Below are positions 12,431-61,700 of a stretch of 64,000 bases of DNA, piece after piece (the first letter of the stretch is position 1; each line of letters begins with the position of its first letter). Origin of the DNA: Linnemannia elongata (lineage: Eukaryota; Mortierellomycota; Mortierellomycetes; Mortierellales; Mortierellaceae); contig JAXBDG010000015.1 in the NCBI GenBank assembly GCA_036320915.1, forward strand, positions 744,001 through 808,000, read 5' to 3'. The translations under genes and the position numbers were made by a program. The notes beneath the pieces were generated by a model. It ran no database searches. It worked only from the letters and a program-made list of their open reading frames with translations, and had not been told where the DNA came from.

Positions 12431-13252
12431 TGGCGCTAGTTGCAGTGCATGCCACGACGCTGCGGACCACATGGAACAACAAATGACAGTGGCAGTTTAT
12501 GGTACTTCGATGTGGCCTCTTCCTTCAATTCAGGAGAACTCCAATGCGTGTTGTTAATGCTCTGTTCACCTGCAAGAATTTATTTTACTCGACAGGTTGA
12601 ATTTTGTTTCTGCTGCCTTGGACGAAGATATTACAGTAATACATTATCCATGCAAATAGAGATCTACTGTGTTATCCTTCTATAATACTTCTTGTTAGTG
12701 TATGCCAAATGTAATGACGGTTAAGGTTTATTGTTCAGCAATGCCTGGGGCTTTATCTGTGAGTATCTTTCTTTTATTATGGCCGTTACTTCCAAAGATA
12801 AAAACAGTTTAATGATGAATGAAGACATAAAAAAGAAGAGTTTGGGTGTTCTGTGGGTTTCTATATTCTTGCTAGAAAAGGGTGGGTTGAAGGAGTCATT
12901 TAGAGTCCCTGGGAAGGAAGAATAATCGAGTTCAATGGTTAGTCTTTCTTTTGTCTGCATCCAACCCTGTGAACACCATATTAAAAAAAAGTCGCAAACA
13001 TGCTTCCACCACTTGGAACAAAAGTCATCGCCCTGCAAACGTAAGCTGAGACTGATCGGCGGAATTTGACGTGACAACAACAATAATGCTACTCATCTGG
13101 TAGTCATACTCCCATTCTATGGTGATGATGAGCGGCCAAACACATCTTGTCCATAACTCAAATCACCACTAGAAAATATGAGAGAAACCATCATGTCCAA
13201 GGTATATATGTGCGTGTCAACATATATATTTATTAACAGTGCTTTTCCAAGC
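12431..13252. other. Intergenic DNA between the GT10 relic and the inverted duplication
   Basis: The open frames at 12440-12685 and 12721-13083 have no domain and no supporting start or splice signals. The AT-rich end (13200-13235) abuts the left arm of the inverted repeat. No gene is called here. Confidence 0.5.
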
Positions 13253-13280
13253 ACGACTGCTCATGTTTGGTTGAGCTTAT

Positions 13281-13712
13281 CTAATTCCAGCAAATGATAG
13301 CCGAGATGCCAGGGAAGGGAACATTCGTCCAGTCATTGGTGGGGCCAATTGTGGCAGATTGTCCGCTGCAGCCAGCGTGCTCGAAGACGACGCAGTTGTA
13401 GTACTTGTCAATACTGTACTGGAATGACTGGTCGTTGATCCATCCGGGAAAGTTGGTGCAGTTTAAGCCAGCACTGACATGATACTCTCCGCGGTCTTCG
13501 TGGAGAAACAAAACACCACCATCAGCTGCTTCGGTGGTAGCGACAGCAAAAAGGAAAAGGATGCAGGCCTGCCGGCAACTCTTTTGGCTATAATCGAAAA
13601 AGAATATGGTCTTACGAGGATGACGAGGCGTAGGGATTGTGAAGGATTTTGTTTTTGAGACAAAAGGGTATAGAAGGAATGCTGAGAGCGCTTGGTGAGG
13701 AACAAACTCCAT
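13281..13712 (-). CDS. Small secreted beta/gamma-crystallin-like protein, left-arm copy
   Basis: 143 codons, identical to the plus-strand copy at 15855-16286 except one residue (Thr for Ile near residue 21). The conserved part begins after a hydrophobic ILFLFAVATTEA segment that looks like the end of a signal peptide. It shows two Greek-key-like half-motifs (VLFLHEDRGEYHV and CVVFEHAGCSGQS) and ends in an ISAIICWN strand, with Cys residues spaced as in secreted crystallin-fold proteins. The upstream 50 residues look unlike a normal secretion leader, and the only ATG is just 21 nt after the start of a TATA box, so expression of this exact start is doubtful. Fold assignment is by pattern only; the role is unknown. 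Confidence 0.5.
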   Translation of the reverse strand: MEFVPHQALSAFLLYPFVSKTKSFTIPTPRHPRKTIFFFDYSQKSCRQACILFLFAVATTEAADGGVLFLHEDRGEYHVSAGLNCTNFPGWINDQSFQYSIDKYYNCVVFEHAGCSGQSATIGPTNDWTNVPFPGISAIICWN

Positions 13713-13725
13713 GGGAACAATTGCC

Positions 13726-13733
13726 TATTTATA
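13726..13733 (-). promoter_or_regulatory. TATA box of the left-arm 143-aa gene
   Basis: TATAAATA, the exact mirror of 15834-15841. It lies only 21 nt before the single ATG of the frame. Confidence 0.5.
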
Positions 13734-14220
13734 CATGTTTGTTCGTGTGAAAGTAAAATAGTAGTTGAGCTTGAATGATCAACTGCGATAAGAGTCGATC
13801 ATTCACTTGTGCCGTACAGAAATTGATTCAAGATGAGTGGAAAATGGACACAGGCTCTCAAATACGCGATAGCACAAACAAGGGGCACCATCTGGGACCT
13901 AAGTAAGGATAGATACTTGCGAACTGTTACTACTGTGCCTTGTGAGATCATGAAGTGGGAGCGAAATAAAGTCTGATAGTTGGAGAAAGTGAGATGGTAG
14001 GATGGAATTCAATAAAGAGAAGCTGTTTCGCTTTTACTAATGGTCACATTTTTTCGGAAAGATTTACGAGTGTAGAAGCAGGGAACTTGTACTACAAAGC
14101 ATATGAAATGGATTTTTAATAGAGTGTAGGGCATTGGGCGTCAAAAGCATCCTTTTTTTTTATTTGTCCTCCTCATTAAAAAATGGAGAGAAATCGATTT
14201 GGGCCAAAAACTGCAGAAGG

Positions 14221-14624
14221 CTACTGTGGAGTTCGGACAGCCTTAATGCTGTAGAAGGAAGGTTCAAATCGCAAACATGCAGCTGTGCTTTGGCTGAGTA
14301 CGACTTTTTGAATCTCTGTGTTACATCCAAAGTCCCTATAGGCCGTAACTGTAACAGAAGCGTGCATGTTGTTCCCAACAGTAATTGACTTGGAGCCCAT
14401 TCCCTTGAGATCTCTACAATTATCGAGCGCGCCACACAAGCCCTTGGAGGTGCCGCCGCCACAGCCATCTTCCTCATAAACTTCGTAATGAATATCGCAG
14501 GCTTGGATGGAATCTCCATCGGTAGGCTTGAGTGTAAAATTCAAGGGGGCATCGGCGGCATTTGGATCCAGAGGCACAATGGCAGCAGCGGCAACGGCAA
14601 TTAGTCCCAAAAGAATGGCAAGCT
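14221..14624 (-). pseudogene. 5'-truncated copy of the 139-aa secreted cysteine-rich gene
   Basis: This is the mirror of 14943-15346. The duplication breakpoint removed codons 1-5, the leader and the promoter. The frame stays open into the spacer to 14694, but only by way of a TTG codon, and no ATG occurs in frame until a Met about 75 residues into the protein. It therefore lacks the signal peptide start and is most likely non-functional, although its coding sequence is otherwise undamaged, which suggests that the event is recent. Confidence 0.8.
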
Positions 14625-14942
14625 CGCAAGAGCCACCACAAGGACGATTTCCCTCAAAAAAACCCCTCGCCAGAGCACCACAGACACCCAACAAGAATGT
14701 TCACTGAAGCGCTCACATTTTTTGACCAGACCAGATCCTTGTAAGATTATACTATTTGACTTTCGCGTATAATTAAGGGGTGCATGTTCGTATCCATAAC
14801 TGACAAATTATCCTTCCTGATCCACCTCTGTCCCTTCCACTTGATCCAATCCATTTCTGTTTCTCTTGCCCTGTCGGAACCTGATACACACACAAGCTTT
14901 CAAAGACACAAACCCCCAACAACACAATGTACCGACCATCTA
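14625..14942. other. 318-bp spacer of the inverted duplication, with the promoter of the intact 139-aa gene
   Basis: Unique sequence between the arms. Its right part holds a TATA-like TATAATTA at 14769-14776 and a pyrimidine/CA-rich leader to the ATG at 14927. The left part (14625-14760) has no recognisable content and presumably is the original upstream DNA of the gene. Confidence 0.7.
14769..14776 (+). promoter_or_regulatory. TATA-like box of the 139-aa secreted protein gene
   Basis: TATAATTA about 158 nt before the ATG, leaving a leader of roughly 125 nt if transcription starts about 30 nt downstream. The inverted copy lacks this element. Confidence 0.45.
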
Positions 14943-15346
14943 AGCTTGCCATTCTTTTGGGACTAATTGCCGTTGCCGCTGCTGCCATTGTGCCTCTGGA
15001 TCCAAATGCCGCCGATGCCCCCTTGAATTTTACACTCAAGCCTACCGATGGAGATTCCATCCAAGCCTGCGATATTCATTACGAAGTTTATGAGGAAGAT
15101 GGCTGTGGCGGCGGCACCTCCAAGGGCTTGTGTGGCGCGCTCGATAATTGTAGAGATCTCAAGGGAATGGGCTCCAAGTCAATTACTGTTGGGAACAACA
15201 TGCACGCTTCTGTTACAGTTACGGCCTATAGGGACTTTGGATGTAACACAGAGATTCAAAAAGTCGTACTCAGCCAAAGCACAGCTGCATGTTTGCGATT
15301 TGAACCTTCCTTCTACAGCATTAAGGCTGTCCGAACTCCACAGTAG
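14927..15346 (+). CDS. Small secreted cysteine-rich protein (crystallin-like), intact copy
   Basis: Single exon, 139 aa, ATG at 14927 in a clean context. Residues 1-20 form a typical signal peptide (MYRPSKLAILLGLIAVAAAA) with probable cleavage after the Ala run. The mature part has 7 Cys, including a CGGGTSKGLC loop, and ends in a strand pair (VTAYRDFGCN and FYSIKAV) like the closing half of a beta/gamma-crystallin Greek key. It is followed about 500 bp downstream by the 143-aa gene in the same orientation, and both were copied together into the inverted arm. Small size, secretion and Cys pairs would fit a cell-wall, antimicrobial or effector-like role, but none is shown by the sequence. Confidence 0.75.
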   Translation: MYRPSKLAILLGLIAVAAAAIVPLDPNAADAPLNFTLKPTDGDSIQACDIHYEVYEEDGCGGGTSKGLCGALDNCRDLKGMGSKSITVGNNMHASVTVTAYRDFGCNTEIQKVVLSQSTAACLRFEPSFYSIKAVRTPQ

Positions 15347-15833
15347 CCTTCTGCAGTTTTTGGCCCAAATCGATTTCTCTCCATTTTTTAATGAGGAGGA
15401 CAAATAAAAAAAAAGGATGCTTTTGACGCCCAATGCCCTACACTCTATTAAAAATCCATTTCATATGCTTTGTAGTACAAGTTCCCTGCTTCTACACTCG
15501 TAAATCTTTCCGAAAAAATGTGACCATTAGTAAAAGCGAAACAGCTTCTCTTTATTGAATTCCATCCTACCATCTCACTTTCTCCAACTATCAGACTTTA
15601 TTTCGCTCCCACTTCATGATCTCACAAGGCACAGTAGTAACAGTTCGCAAGTATCTATCCTTACTTAGGTCCCAGATGGTGCCCCTTGTTTGTGCTATCG
15701 CGTATTTGAGAGCCTGTGTCCATTTTCCACTCATCTTGAATCAATTTCTGTACGGCACAAGTGAATGATCGACTCTTATCGCAGTTGATCATTCAAGCTC
15801 AACTACTATTTTACTTTCACACGAACAAACATG

Positions 15834-15841
15834 TATAAATA
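15834..15841 (+). promoter_or_regulatory. TATA box of the right-arm 143-aa gene
   Basis: TATAAATA, 21 nt before the only in-frame ATG at 15855. A transcript starting at a usual distance would miss that ATG. Confidence 0.5.
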
Positions 15842-15854
15842 GGCAATTGTTCCC

Positions 15855-16286
15855 ATGGAGTTTGTTCCTCACCAAGCGCTCTCAGCATTCCTTCTATACC
15901 CTTTTGTCTCAAAAATAAAATCCTTCACAATCCCTACGCCTCGTCATCCTCGTAAGACCATATTCTTTTTCGATTATAGCCAAAAGAGTTGCCGGCAGGC
16001 CTGCATCCTTTTCCTTTTTGCTGTCGCTACCACCGAAGCAGCTGATGGTGGTGTTTTGTTTCTCCACGAAGACCGCGGAGAGTATCATGTCAGTGCTGGC
16101 TTAAACTGCACCAACTTTCCCGGATGGATCAACGACCAGTCATTCCAGTACAGTATTGACAAGTACTACAACTGCGTCGTCTTCGAGCACGCTGGCTGCA
16201 GCGGACAATCTGCCACAATTGGCCCCACCAATGACTGGACGAATGTTCCCTTCCCTGGCATCTCGGCTATCATTTGCTGGAATTAG
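15855..16286 (+). CDS. Small secreted beta/gamma-crystallin-like protein, right-arm copy
   Basis: 143 codons. Conserved region from about residue 65: VLFLHEDRGEYHV, then CTNFPGW, CVVFEHAGCSGQS and a terminal ISAIICWN. This is the repeated strand/Tyr-corner pattern of beta/gamma-crystallin-like secreted proteins. A hydrophobic ILFLFAVATTEA just before it resembles the end of a signal peptide, but the residues ahead of it (a Pro/Lys/Arg stretch) do not. Together with the TATA box only 21 nt upstream of the ATG, this suggests that the ancestral start was lost and the frame may be dead in both copies. Splicing out the GTAAGA...CAG segment (47 nt) breaks the frame, so no intron is proposed. Confidence 0.5.
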   Translation: MEFVPHQALSAFLLYPFVSKIKSFTIPTPRHPRKTIFFFDYSQKSCRQACILFLFAVATTEAADGGVLFLHEDRGEYHVSAGLNCTNFPGWINDQSFQYSIDKYYNCVVFEHAGCSGQSATIGPTNDWTNVPFPGISAIICWN

Positions 16287-16314
16287 ATAAGCTCAACCAA
16301 ACATGAGCAATCGT

Positions 16315-16463: not shown

Positions 16464-16494
<31 letters not shown>

Positions 16495-16741: not shown

Positions 16742-16790
<49 letters not shown>

Positions 16791-17496: not shown

Positions 17497-17670
17497 TATT
17501 ATGGTTTGTTCAGTCCCCTAGTTTCATCGTTCGCACCCTCAAATTTTCAATGTAAATACACGAATTGATGTAGTACAAGCTTGTATGATTTTAAAGGTTT
17601 GGGTTGTAAAAATGAAGAACTGCAGCTATTGATGTTTATTTTCAAGCGTGTGTGTGTGTAAGGTAGACCA

Positions 17671-18329
17671 TTGGCCTTTGAGCAGCGGCGACCCATTTTG
17701 GTCTTTCGGCAGCAGTCCAAGGATCAGCGTCAAAGGATTGGGGGCTTTGTCGGCGGTGTGAGTGATGTGGAGGTCGTTGAGGATGATCCAGAATTATTTG
17801 GGCAAGGTTCCTTTGGCGACTTCTTTAGCATAGTCGTCGTAGGTACCGATGGCGGACAAGCACTCGGGGGTGCCACGGAGGTCGGAAATCATGTTGAAAG
17901 GCAAATGGCGCTTGTAATAGAGGGCAGTGACCTTGTCATCTGGATACATGTCGGGCAAGTAGCATCCGCCGGGATAGGACTCTGTGTATTGCTTGTAAGT
18001 CAGACCGTTCGCCTTGAGTTGATCCAAGATGGTGGGGTGAGTGATGTTGAGATTGGCAGGAGTGGCCGCGCCTCCGCGATAGATGTTTGGGTCCAACACC
18101 GGTAGTGATGGCGGCGAAGTTTTGCTCCGAGACATGGGAAAAGCCGAAGTAATTGGTGACCAACATGCCCTGAGCAAGCAAAGCTTAGGCAGGTTGTTGA
18201 ACTCTCAGTCAAAAGTCTTCGTTTTCCGACATGATAATGTCAACGGAGTGAAGCCATTTTACCCTTGGGTGCAGCGGAAACCAATGCAGTGACTGGCAAG
18301 ATCGCCGCGGTAGGAATGAGCTTGATCAT
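17671..18329 (-). pseudogene. Phosphoesterase-family (acid phosphatase/phospholipase C-like) relic, copy 1
   Basis: From an ATG at 18329 a signal-peptide-like MIKLIPTAAILPVTALVSAA is followed by an in-frame TGA after MASLR. Later pieces in shifted frames give LLAQGMLVTNYFGFSH, ANLNITHPTILDQLKANGL and YKQYTESYPGGCYLPDMYPD. These are the conserved order of PF04185-type secreted phosphoesterases, in which the Ser/Thr-Asn-Tyr and Asn-X-His segments surround the active site. The C-terminal third is deleted relative to copy 2, with the join at an ATTGG microhomology near 17668. Confidence 0.75.
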
Positions 18330-18350
18330 TGATGGAGGAGAGAAACAGGG

Positions 18351-19227
18351 GAAAGAAAGGGGAGAGAGTGAAACGGAGTGAAATAAACAAGAGAACTGCG
18401 CCAAACTCTGTCATCGGTGACACCAATTGAACCAGCCACTCGATATCTACTAAGAAAGGCTATGCAAATAGGATGGACCTTATCCTTGCAAACAATACAA
18501 TCCAGCACATTGGACCTGATAAAAAATATGGACTAGCGAAGTTATCGATGGAAAGGGTCAACCTCGATTTAGGTGTAGCAGAGTTAAATCGGCACAATGA
18601 AGTAGGTCCATCGGTGGGATTGTAGGTAGGCTACGCTTCAGAACGATTAAGCTCACCATGTAGCCTGGTCAATCATCTGCATTTTTTCCTAATGCGAGGT
18701 GTAGAAACGTACTGTTCTAAAACTGACATCAAGGCTATTTTTCGCGTAAAAGGCAGTGCTTGGCTGGCGGGAGAATTGGTGAATGTGAACGAAATTACCC
18801 TTGCAGTATTTTTGGAGCACTGGTCACTTGGTTTGTAATGATAGATAGAAGAGGCAAAGCATTGACCGCTTGGTTTTACTATAAACACTACACAAATAGC
18901 ACTTGCGCCGATTCACCATGCATGTTCGAGAGAGTATTAAGGGGTGGTGAGGAGTACAAGGACGAGTCGCAGCGAGGAGAATCGCATGTCATCGATGCTC
19001 TAGGCTCTCAATCCTTCTATTTTATGTGAGGCTTAGACCCCCTACTTTCGATGGGCCACTGTAGTACGTGCGCATCCAAAACGCATGGACCAACTTGAAC
19101 CAAACAAAACAGAGGAAGAAGGAAGCATATAAGATGACAGGAAAATAATAACTCTTTCTTACCTTCTTCCTCCTCATTCTTTCCCCTCAAAGTCTTGCGT
19201 CTTGCTACTACAACCCAGTCCTCTATA
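18351..19227. other. Intergenic and promoter DNA upstream of the membrane-protein gene
   Basis: No domain-bearing frame. The final ~100 bp contain a TATAAG motif at about 19128-19133 that could serve the gene starting at 19228. Confidence 0.45.
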
Positions 19228-21199: not shown

Positions 21200-22690
21200 A
21201 TCGGGGGTTTTTCTTATTCCCGTTTATTCAAATGCCGTAGTTTCATTCGCCCACCTCAAAATTGTAAATACAATTGTCAATGTTATACATGCTTTTTTAT
21301 GGTTTCAAAAGTTTTTGGTTGTAAAAATGAAGAACAGCAGCCATTTTGTCATTTTCAAGTGTGTGTGAAACGTAGAGCACTGGTGTGTTCTTAGAACAAG
21401 TGTAAGGTATGAGAAAGCTGAAAAATGTGTAGAGAGGCCAAGGAGATTGTTTCTGACAAATTGAGAGAAAAAAAGAAACTACAACCATAGATACTGATAC
21501 CGATGGTGTAGTTGGAGCTTTTTAAAGTAAAAGCGGCAGTATTAAAACAACTTGGTGGTATCCCATCAACTAGCAGGAGTATCCCACGTTAGAATGATAC
21601 AACGCTAGGAAGGACACCTAGCAACCCGGCAACCATGCCCTTCAGGCCCAGGCTCATAGAAGCCTTAACCAGAGAAGTAACAGAGTTGGTTTTGGTCGCC
21701 AGGAATGCCACTACCGGACATAGAGCTGCCGCCTGAGAACGAAGGGCTGCCTGTGCTGGGGTTGGCCAACAAAAAGTCAAGGCTGTCGCGTTAGCATAAG
21801 CGGTCGCGAGTGGTTTCAGGCCCCAATTTTCTTCGATAGTACGGGCGATCGAGAAATGGCTCCTGTACTTGTTGTTACTGATGTTGTTTGGCACCATCAG
21901 ACCCCAAAGGATGGTGGCAATTTGCTGGTCGAGGTGAGTACCGCATGGATATTTGGTGGTGTTATCGCAGCAAGAATCGTCCCATGTGTTGATAAAGAGA
22001 GCATTGGCCACTGAGCAGCGGCAACCCATTTCAGGCCTTTGGCAGCAGTCTAAAGGTCAACATCAATAAAAGGATTGGGGGCTTTGTCGGCGGTGTGAGT
22101 GATGTGGAGGTCGTTGGGGATGATCCAGAGTTAATTGGGCAAGGTTCCTTTGGCGACTTCGTTAGCATAGTCGTCGTAGGTACCGATGGCGGACAAGCAC
22201 TCGGGGGTGTCACGGAGGTTGAAGATCATGTTGAAAGGCAAATGGCACTTGTAATAGAGGGCAGTGACCTTGTCATCTGGATACATGTCGGGCAAGTAGC
22301 ATCCGCCGGGATAGGACTCTGTGTATTGCTTGTAAGTCAGACCGTTCGCCTTGAGTTGATCCAAGATGGTGGGGTGAGTGATGTTGAGATTGGCAGGGGT
22401 GGTCGCGCCTCCGCGTTAGATGTTCGGGTCCAACACCCCGGTAATGATGGCGGCGTAGTTTTGCTGCGAGACATGGGAAAAGCCGAAGTAATTGGTGACC
22501 AACACGCCCTGAGCAATCAAAGCTAGGTAGGCAGGTTGTTGAGATTTCAGTCAAAAGTCTTCGTATTTTCGACATGATAATGTCAACGGAGTGAAGCCAT
22601 TTTACCCTTGGGTGCAGCGGAGACCAATGCAGTGACCGCCAGGAGCGCCTCAGTAGAATTGAAGTTGATCATTGAGGGTGGAAGGAAAGA
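21060..22690. repeat. Segmental duplication, copy 2
   Basis: Reference copy for 16930-18350. It contains the intact 3' end of the membrane-protein gene, the empty TA site of the MITE, and a longer but still broken phosphoesterase gene. Confidence 0.85.
21589..22672 (-). pseudogene. Phosphoesterase-family relic, copy 2
   Basis: Starts at an ATG at 22672. N-terminal ALLAVTALVSAAPKGKM is followed by the same TGA after MASLR as in copy 1. Conserved segments then follow: VLVTNYFGFSH, a TAA in place of the residue before RGGATT, ITHPTILDQLKANGL, NDLHITHTADKAPNP, and a C-terminal block ALFINTWDDSC with IARTIEENWGL. The last two match the phosphoesterase metal-site and C-terminal signatures. Further damage: stop after GTLPN, stop in the DVDL-stop-TAAK segment and a frameshift before ALFINTW. 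Intact relatives are secreted enzymes that hydrolyse phosphate esters. The N-terminal stop shared with copy 1 suggests that the gene died before duplication. Confidence 0.8.
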
Positions 22691-22879
22691 GGGGATAGAA
22701 AGGGGGGAAGAAAACAAAGAAGAGTGGTTTAGCAAGAGTGCGAGCGAAGTGTGAGGAGTAAGAATGGAATAATCTGAAAGGTTGTATGGGTGACAGAGAG
22801 TGCGTGTGTGTGAGTGAGAGGAAGAGAGAGAAGGCGAGAGAAAGAGAAGACGAGAAAAAGTTGAGTATACATGATAACG

Positions 22880-61627: not shown

Positions 61628-61634
61628 GCGACCT

Positions 61635-61675
<41 letters not shown>

Positions 61676-61700
61676 GTGTGTTCAATCCACACAGGTCGCA
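61628..61700 (+). tRNA. tRNA-Phe (GAA)
   Basis: 73 nt, all cloverleaf arms present. The acceptor stem is GCGACCT paired with AGGTCGC, the D arm has GCTC/GAGC around AGTTGGGA, the anticodon stem TCAGA/TCTGA encloses a CTGAAGA loop (anticodon GAA), the variable loop is AGGTC, and the T arm is GTGTG-TTCAATC-CACAC. There is no intron and no encoded CCA, as expected for a nuclear eukaryotic tRNA. A T-rich stretch follows after about 50 nt. Confidence 0.97.

Follow-up and report, generated by a model that had tools for sequence, protein, structure and literature searches.

A probable recent inverted duplication of two genes in the fungus Linnemannia elongata

In a 64,000-nt stretch of Linnemannia elongata DNA (GenBank assembly GCA_036320915.1, contig JAXBDG010000015.1, positions 744,001 to 808,000; hereafter the window, whose own coordinates are used throughout), two nearly identical arms of 1372 bp lie in inverted orientation around a short spacer and carry sequences of two adjacent genes, here called A and B. 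We believe that a recent interstitial inverted duplication, produced either by a two-switch template switch of the 1-4-3-2 type or by a fold-back at a break, is the most plausible explanation, and we give it a probability of about 0.72. If the structure is real, it would be a fresh gene duplication, resolved to the base, in an early-diverging fungus, and would show template switching or break repair yielding an extra gene frame plus a headless copy in one step.

The inverted arms and their copy number

The arms, the spacer and the genes are the following.

13253-14624, minus strand: left arm, inverted and probably derived copy, with B' and the headless A'
14625-14942, no strand: spacer, with the upstream region of A and the first five codons of A
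14943-16314, plus strand: right arm, probably original, with A from codon 6 onward and B
14927-15346, plus strand: gene A, 139 aa, with a hydrophobic N-terminus and rich in cysteine
14221-14624, minus strand: A', copy of A that begins within codon 6
15855-16286, plus strand: gene B, a 143-aa frame that contains cysteine, with Ile at residue 21
13281-13712, minus strand: B', the B frame copied in full, Thr at residue 21 as in strain AG-77; the whole A-B intergenic region is copied with it

The arms pair according to i+j=29567 over all 1372 positions with no indel and two mismatches (13257C/16310A and 13651G/15916T), just one of which falls within the 536 bp lying outside both frames. A match of such length and identity is not due to chance. 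A repeat finder stretched the pairing by six outer positions, to 13247-14624/14943-16320, with 4 mismatches in 1378. Similarity was at chance level outside the outer edge, where 73 of 97 positions differed (13150-13246), and inside the spacer, where 127 of 159 did so (14625-14783). Toward the inner edge the last 973 bp of the arm were fully identical, after which similarity ended abruptly; this edge is the second base of the sixth codon of gene A, whose ATG is at 14927. A first-pass annotation made from the same DNA had described this geometry, including the 318-bp loop between the arms and the breakpoint within codon 6, and all its numbers were right on recount.

When the arm was used as a DNA query against its own genome (51,144,381 bp; the counts of these DNA searches are lower bounds), at least eight matches were found, namely the arms themselves and six partial matches (68-109 bp, 77-81% identity), and no further full copy was among the matches listed. 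The spacer gave one full copy plus one partial match (128-130 bp at 77%) on contig C10, and the 500-bp left flank had one full-length place among its 17 genome matches, the right flank lying outside the genome-wide search. Protein searches of the genome with A and with B yielded two matches each at E <= 1, both corresponding to the arms. In BLAST self-comparisons (pieces of at least 100 bp, E <= 1e-10, low-complexity filter on), the arm pair was the only inverted repeat of the window, and a contiguous 200-kb block of contig C12 contained none. The DNA continues beyond both arms within a contig (C7) of 1,606,139 bp, which is not the configuration of a terminal deletion, a translocation or a ring. 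PacBio sequencing with Flye assembly is described for L. elongata AD073 (PMC10507103), which may or may not be the strain analyzed here.

Origin, direction and age of the duplication

The first five codons of A and its upstream DNA are joined to the right arm only, and for this reason the right arm is probably the original and the left arm the derived one, unless the spacer has flipped since. The start of A resembles that of three homologues (MYRPSKLA or MYGPSKLA), and a complete A is present in the right arm only. When the A' frame was read back from the breakpoint to the previous stop, no ATG was found (a distant spliced start falls outside this check), and A' is probably a silent piece of A. 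B', as a complete frame, differs from B at one of 143 residues, Ile21 in B being Thr21 in B', while the protein of strain AG-77 (P0005) has 9 differences from B and 8 from B' over the 143. Since the left copy agrees with AG-77 at residue 21, the change is most simply placed in the right copy, and these values do not call for a long shared history of B and B'. The two substitutions in 1372 positions amount to 0.0015 per site (95% interval 0.0002-0.0053). As the mismatch at 13257 falls within the zone of outer homology, it may be left-flank sequence, and one substitution in 1372 would correspond to 0.0007 per site (95% interval 0.00002-0.0041).

The sequences at the two putative switch points were then considered.

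13247-13257, plus strand: outer switch site, 8 of 11 bases matching the sequence beyond the right arm
13248-13252, plus strand: CAAGC, a run of five at the end of the left flank, common to the inner arm end
14619-14623, plus strand: CAAGC, a run of five at the spacer-side end of the left arm; this is the inner switch site
13203-13254, plus strand: two small hairpins of the left flank (13203-13228 and 13239-13254) that reach as far as the switch site; -9.6 kcal/mol under DNA parameters

A match as good as the outer one has a chance of 0.0012 by the binomial and occurred in 0.0018 of 300,000 sampled pairs, and a run of five or more touching a junction in 0.0054 of 200,000. Of the 65-nt windows, 100 out of 3196 were as stable as the left-flank hairpins or more so, a weak enrichment. 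There is thus short homology at both switch points (CAAGC and the imperfect 8/11), sought after the fact in both cases, together with a reverse-complement copy beside its source and a single-copy spacer, as template switching predicts.

By that route, synthesis reaching the end of the left flank (13252-13257) would have left its own template, restarted on the other strand past gene B (about 16314), run backwards across B and into A for some 1372 nt, as far as codon 6 of that gene, and rejoined its first template via the common CAAGC, and the spacer with the upstream region of A would therefore have stayed single. Alternatively, a break between the left flank and the spacer could have let the right end fold back, prime in codon 6 of A, and be extended through A and B before joining to the left flank, with the same product. 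Either way the locus would have gained a second complete B frame, along with a fragment of A that is probably silent. Template switching is slightly simpler in that it needs only one ancestral CAAGC, and the sequence data do not separate the two routes. We infer a single event in both cases. The first-pass annotation had likewise proposed a fold-back or template-switch duplication, and the sharp edges, the unique spacer and the short or imperfect homology at both sites support this.

The interstitial duplication is favored by the position of the arms only 318 bp apart, by their abrupt edges and by the lack of a further full copy among the matches listed. Several points weigh against it. An empty site was not seen in any relative, one assembly being covered, and the partial spacer match on C10 (L014) was no help as a guide to such a site, for it starts at spacer base 3. 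The homologies are short, that at the outer site is imperfect, and both searches were post hoc. The spacer edge has no inverted homology (14625-14627 all mismatch), which speaks against fold-back priming at that edge in its present form, so that CAAGC supports the fold-back route only if it was located at the broken end. The hairpins at the target are only in the top 3% of windows by strength, and a flip of the spacer after the event would swap the apparent original and copy. Finally, yeast fold-back insertions at breaks are mostly about 5-34 bp long (PMC11724301), as against 1372 bp here.

An old inverted duplication in which gene conversion has preserved the likeness of the arms is a rather unlikely alternative. 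Its precedent is the flip/flop region of Saccharomyces chromosome XIV, where inverted repeats of gene pairs are continually homogenized (PMC9731477). One assembly alone does not separate conversion from youth. Arms of about this length are good substrates for recombination. Conversion usually leaves diverged edges, however, whereas the identity here runs through 973 bp to the inner edge and stops at once, which has the look of a fresh copy more than of an old converted one as far as one assembly goes. This complete identity up to a sharp edge, together with the residue polarized by AG-77, favors recency. Among the causes of identity that had been put forward at first, the very recent event is thus the one supported, and ongoing gene conversion is possible and not needed.

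We regard an assembly or library artifact, that is, a fold-back or chimeric long read, as improbable. Fold-back reads are a known class of artifact, making up about 0.55-0.6% of nanopore genomic DNA reads and virtually none of PacBio HiFi reads in the few samples studied (PMC12870357). A fold-back read would nevertheless run into the mirror image of its own flank, and the outer flanks are unrelated. Moreover, the left flank maps at full length to one genomic place among the matches listed, the spacer is present in one full copy, and at the residue that distinguishes the arms the left one agrees with strain AG-77. These observations speak against the artifact that had been offered as an option in the first-pass annotation, and an assembly error is unlikely.

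The remaining explanation, a mobile element or a locus whose palindrome was selected as a source of hairpin RNA, is very improbable: the genome does carry Piwi-family and RNA-dependent RNA polymerase (RdRP)-family matches, and the maize Mu killer, an inverted duplication proposed to silence via hairpin RNA (PMC3440606), is a precedent, but the two full copies lie side by side, the genes face outward so that a hairpin transcript needs read-through, and the protein search with A and B matched both arms only, no other target being seen. Dispersed full-length copies, as a transposable element would have, were not found, there being no third full copy among the matches listed for the 51 Mb.

Genes, possible consequences and surroundings

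At E <= 0.001, gene A matched four proteins out of 82 candidates, namely its own record (F5H01DRAFT_370850) and three homologues, 61-66% identical to it, in Haplosporangium gracile, Gamsiella multidivaricata and Linnemannia exigua, species that we take to be Mortierellaceae. For B, the three matches among 12 candidates were AG-77, the fused record of the same genome and a Mortierella sp. This fused public record, P0001 (14927-16286), merges A and B into one 240-aa model, where AG-77 has a separate 143-aa B; as placed in our analysis, a predicted splice of about 640 bp would join them. The true start of B is uncertain because a TATAAA (15834) sits just 21 bp upstream of its ATG. No Pfam family was found for A or for B up to E 1, nor for the four members of the A alignment, and a PDB sequence search gave no match for A and one unconvincing match for B (E 0.36). 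AlphaFold models of A and B were poor, with mean predicted local distance difference test scores of 40.9 and 34.4. A beta/gamma-crystallin-like fold had been suspected and found no support in this analysis.

The frames of A, A', B and B' all point outward, away from the spacer. Own transcripts of A and A', or of B and B', would therefore be same-sense, and the double-stranded RNA suggested in the earlier annotation, although conceivable, would need read-through from outside. Such a hairpin transcript could in principle feed silencing, which is conceivable because the genome has 15 Piwi-family matches (several being neighboring pieces of one gene) and three adjoining RdRP-family matches. A cruciform, also suggested, is unlikely with a loop of 318 unpaired nucleotides. 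We consider it doubtful that the locus is a live flip/flop, in which recombination between the arms would turn the 318-bp spacer and move the start between A and A'; the second spacer orientation was not seen in the one assembly. Each orientation would have one complete and one headless A, so that it is mainly the neighborhood of A that would change, and if this were true the same exchange would also keep the arms identical. If the structure is real, this naturally marked inverted repeat could allow recombination between the arms and flipping of the spacer to be measured in L. elongata.

Other repeats were observed within and around the arms. Positions 14010-14118 (mirrored at 15449-15557) resemble a dispersed repeat found at five places with 77-80% identity over 109 bp, and the copies of that repeat form two groups with 99.0-99.9% identity within each group over about 1.7 kb. 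In one copy (L003) the shared stretch ends with a run of A and is preceded by a frame that is presumably zinc-knuckle-like. In the left flank, 12754-12926 carries a piece of a dispersed repeat that is present at five places (72-74% over about 150 bp) and at three shorter ones (88% over about 50 bp), and eight short opposite-strand matches of 24-29 bp lie close to these places; we assume this repeat to be similar to a miniature inverted-repeat transposable element. To the right of the right arm there are homopolymers of 28 T (16464-16491, about 150 bp away) and 46 A (16743-16788, about 430 bp away). Further on, a direct duplication (17665-18365 and 21998-22708) is 91% identical over 711 bp, and a minus-strand frame inside its first copy (17794-18177) has a weak Pfam Phosphoesterase match that is under the cut-off (E 0.0048). 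A tRNA at 61628-61700 was the only RNA family in the window, and a search of the plasmid collection in near mode gave no match.

Comparison with known systems

In the four-point 1-4-3-2 template switch, an inverted repeat arises when downstream sequence is copied as its reverse complement and synthesis then goes back to a place close to where it left (PMC7954356). The geometry of a single inverted repeat is the same here, but the events described there are short-range, of tens to hundreds of nucleotides, while this one covers 1372 nt and its ancestral sequence was not seen. The yeast fold-back templated insertions (PMC11724301) are alike in that sequence from one side of a break is copied in inverted form, the loop stays single and the other end is joined with little homology; they occur at breaks, whereas a break is only postulated for the present locus and its spacer edge lacks inverted homology. 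Human fold-back inverted duplications with a disomic spacer (PMC3907307) share with it short junction homology and a single-copy spacer, of which we found one full copy, and differ in that here both flanks continue, the event being interstitial and small. Local two-jumps (PMC7025897), the nearest class in cancer genomes, combine two nearby inverted junctions with a gain of copies; they are somatic and their footprints are typically under 1 Mb, compared with about 3 kb in L. elongata.

The Saccharomyces chromosome XIV flip/flop, with 4-kb repeats around a 24-kb region and both orientations observed (PMC9731477), resembles our locus in being an inverted repeat of gene pairs with almost identical arms, and differs from it by the 318-bp spacer and the one orientation in one assembly seen here. 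Inverted triplications need a third copy (PMC13334657; PMC10766186), and an inverted triplication or origin-dependent inverted-repeat amplification (ODIRA) product, having three copies with the middle one inverted, is not needed, since two full copies only were among the matches listed and the self-comparison of the window disclosed no remnant. Breakage-replication/fusion is a further general route to segmental gains of copies (PMC12807874). On the whole, the locus belongs to a known kind of inverted duplication and is no new class of system.
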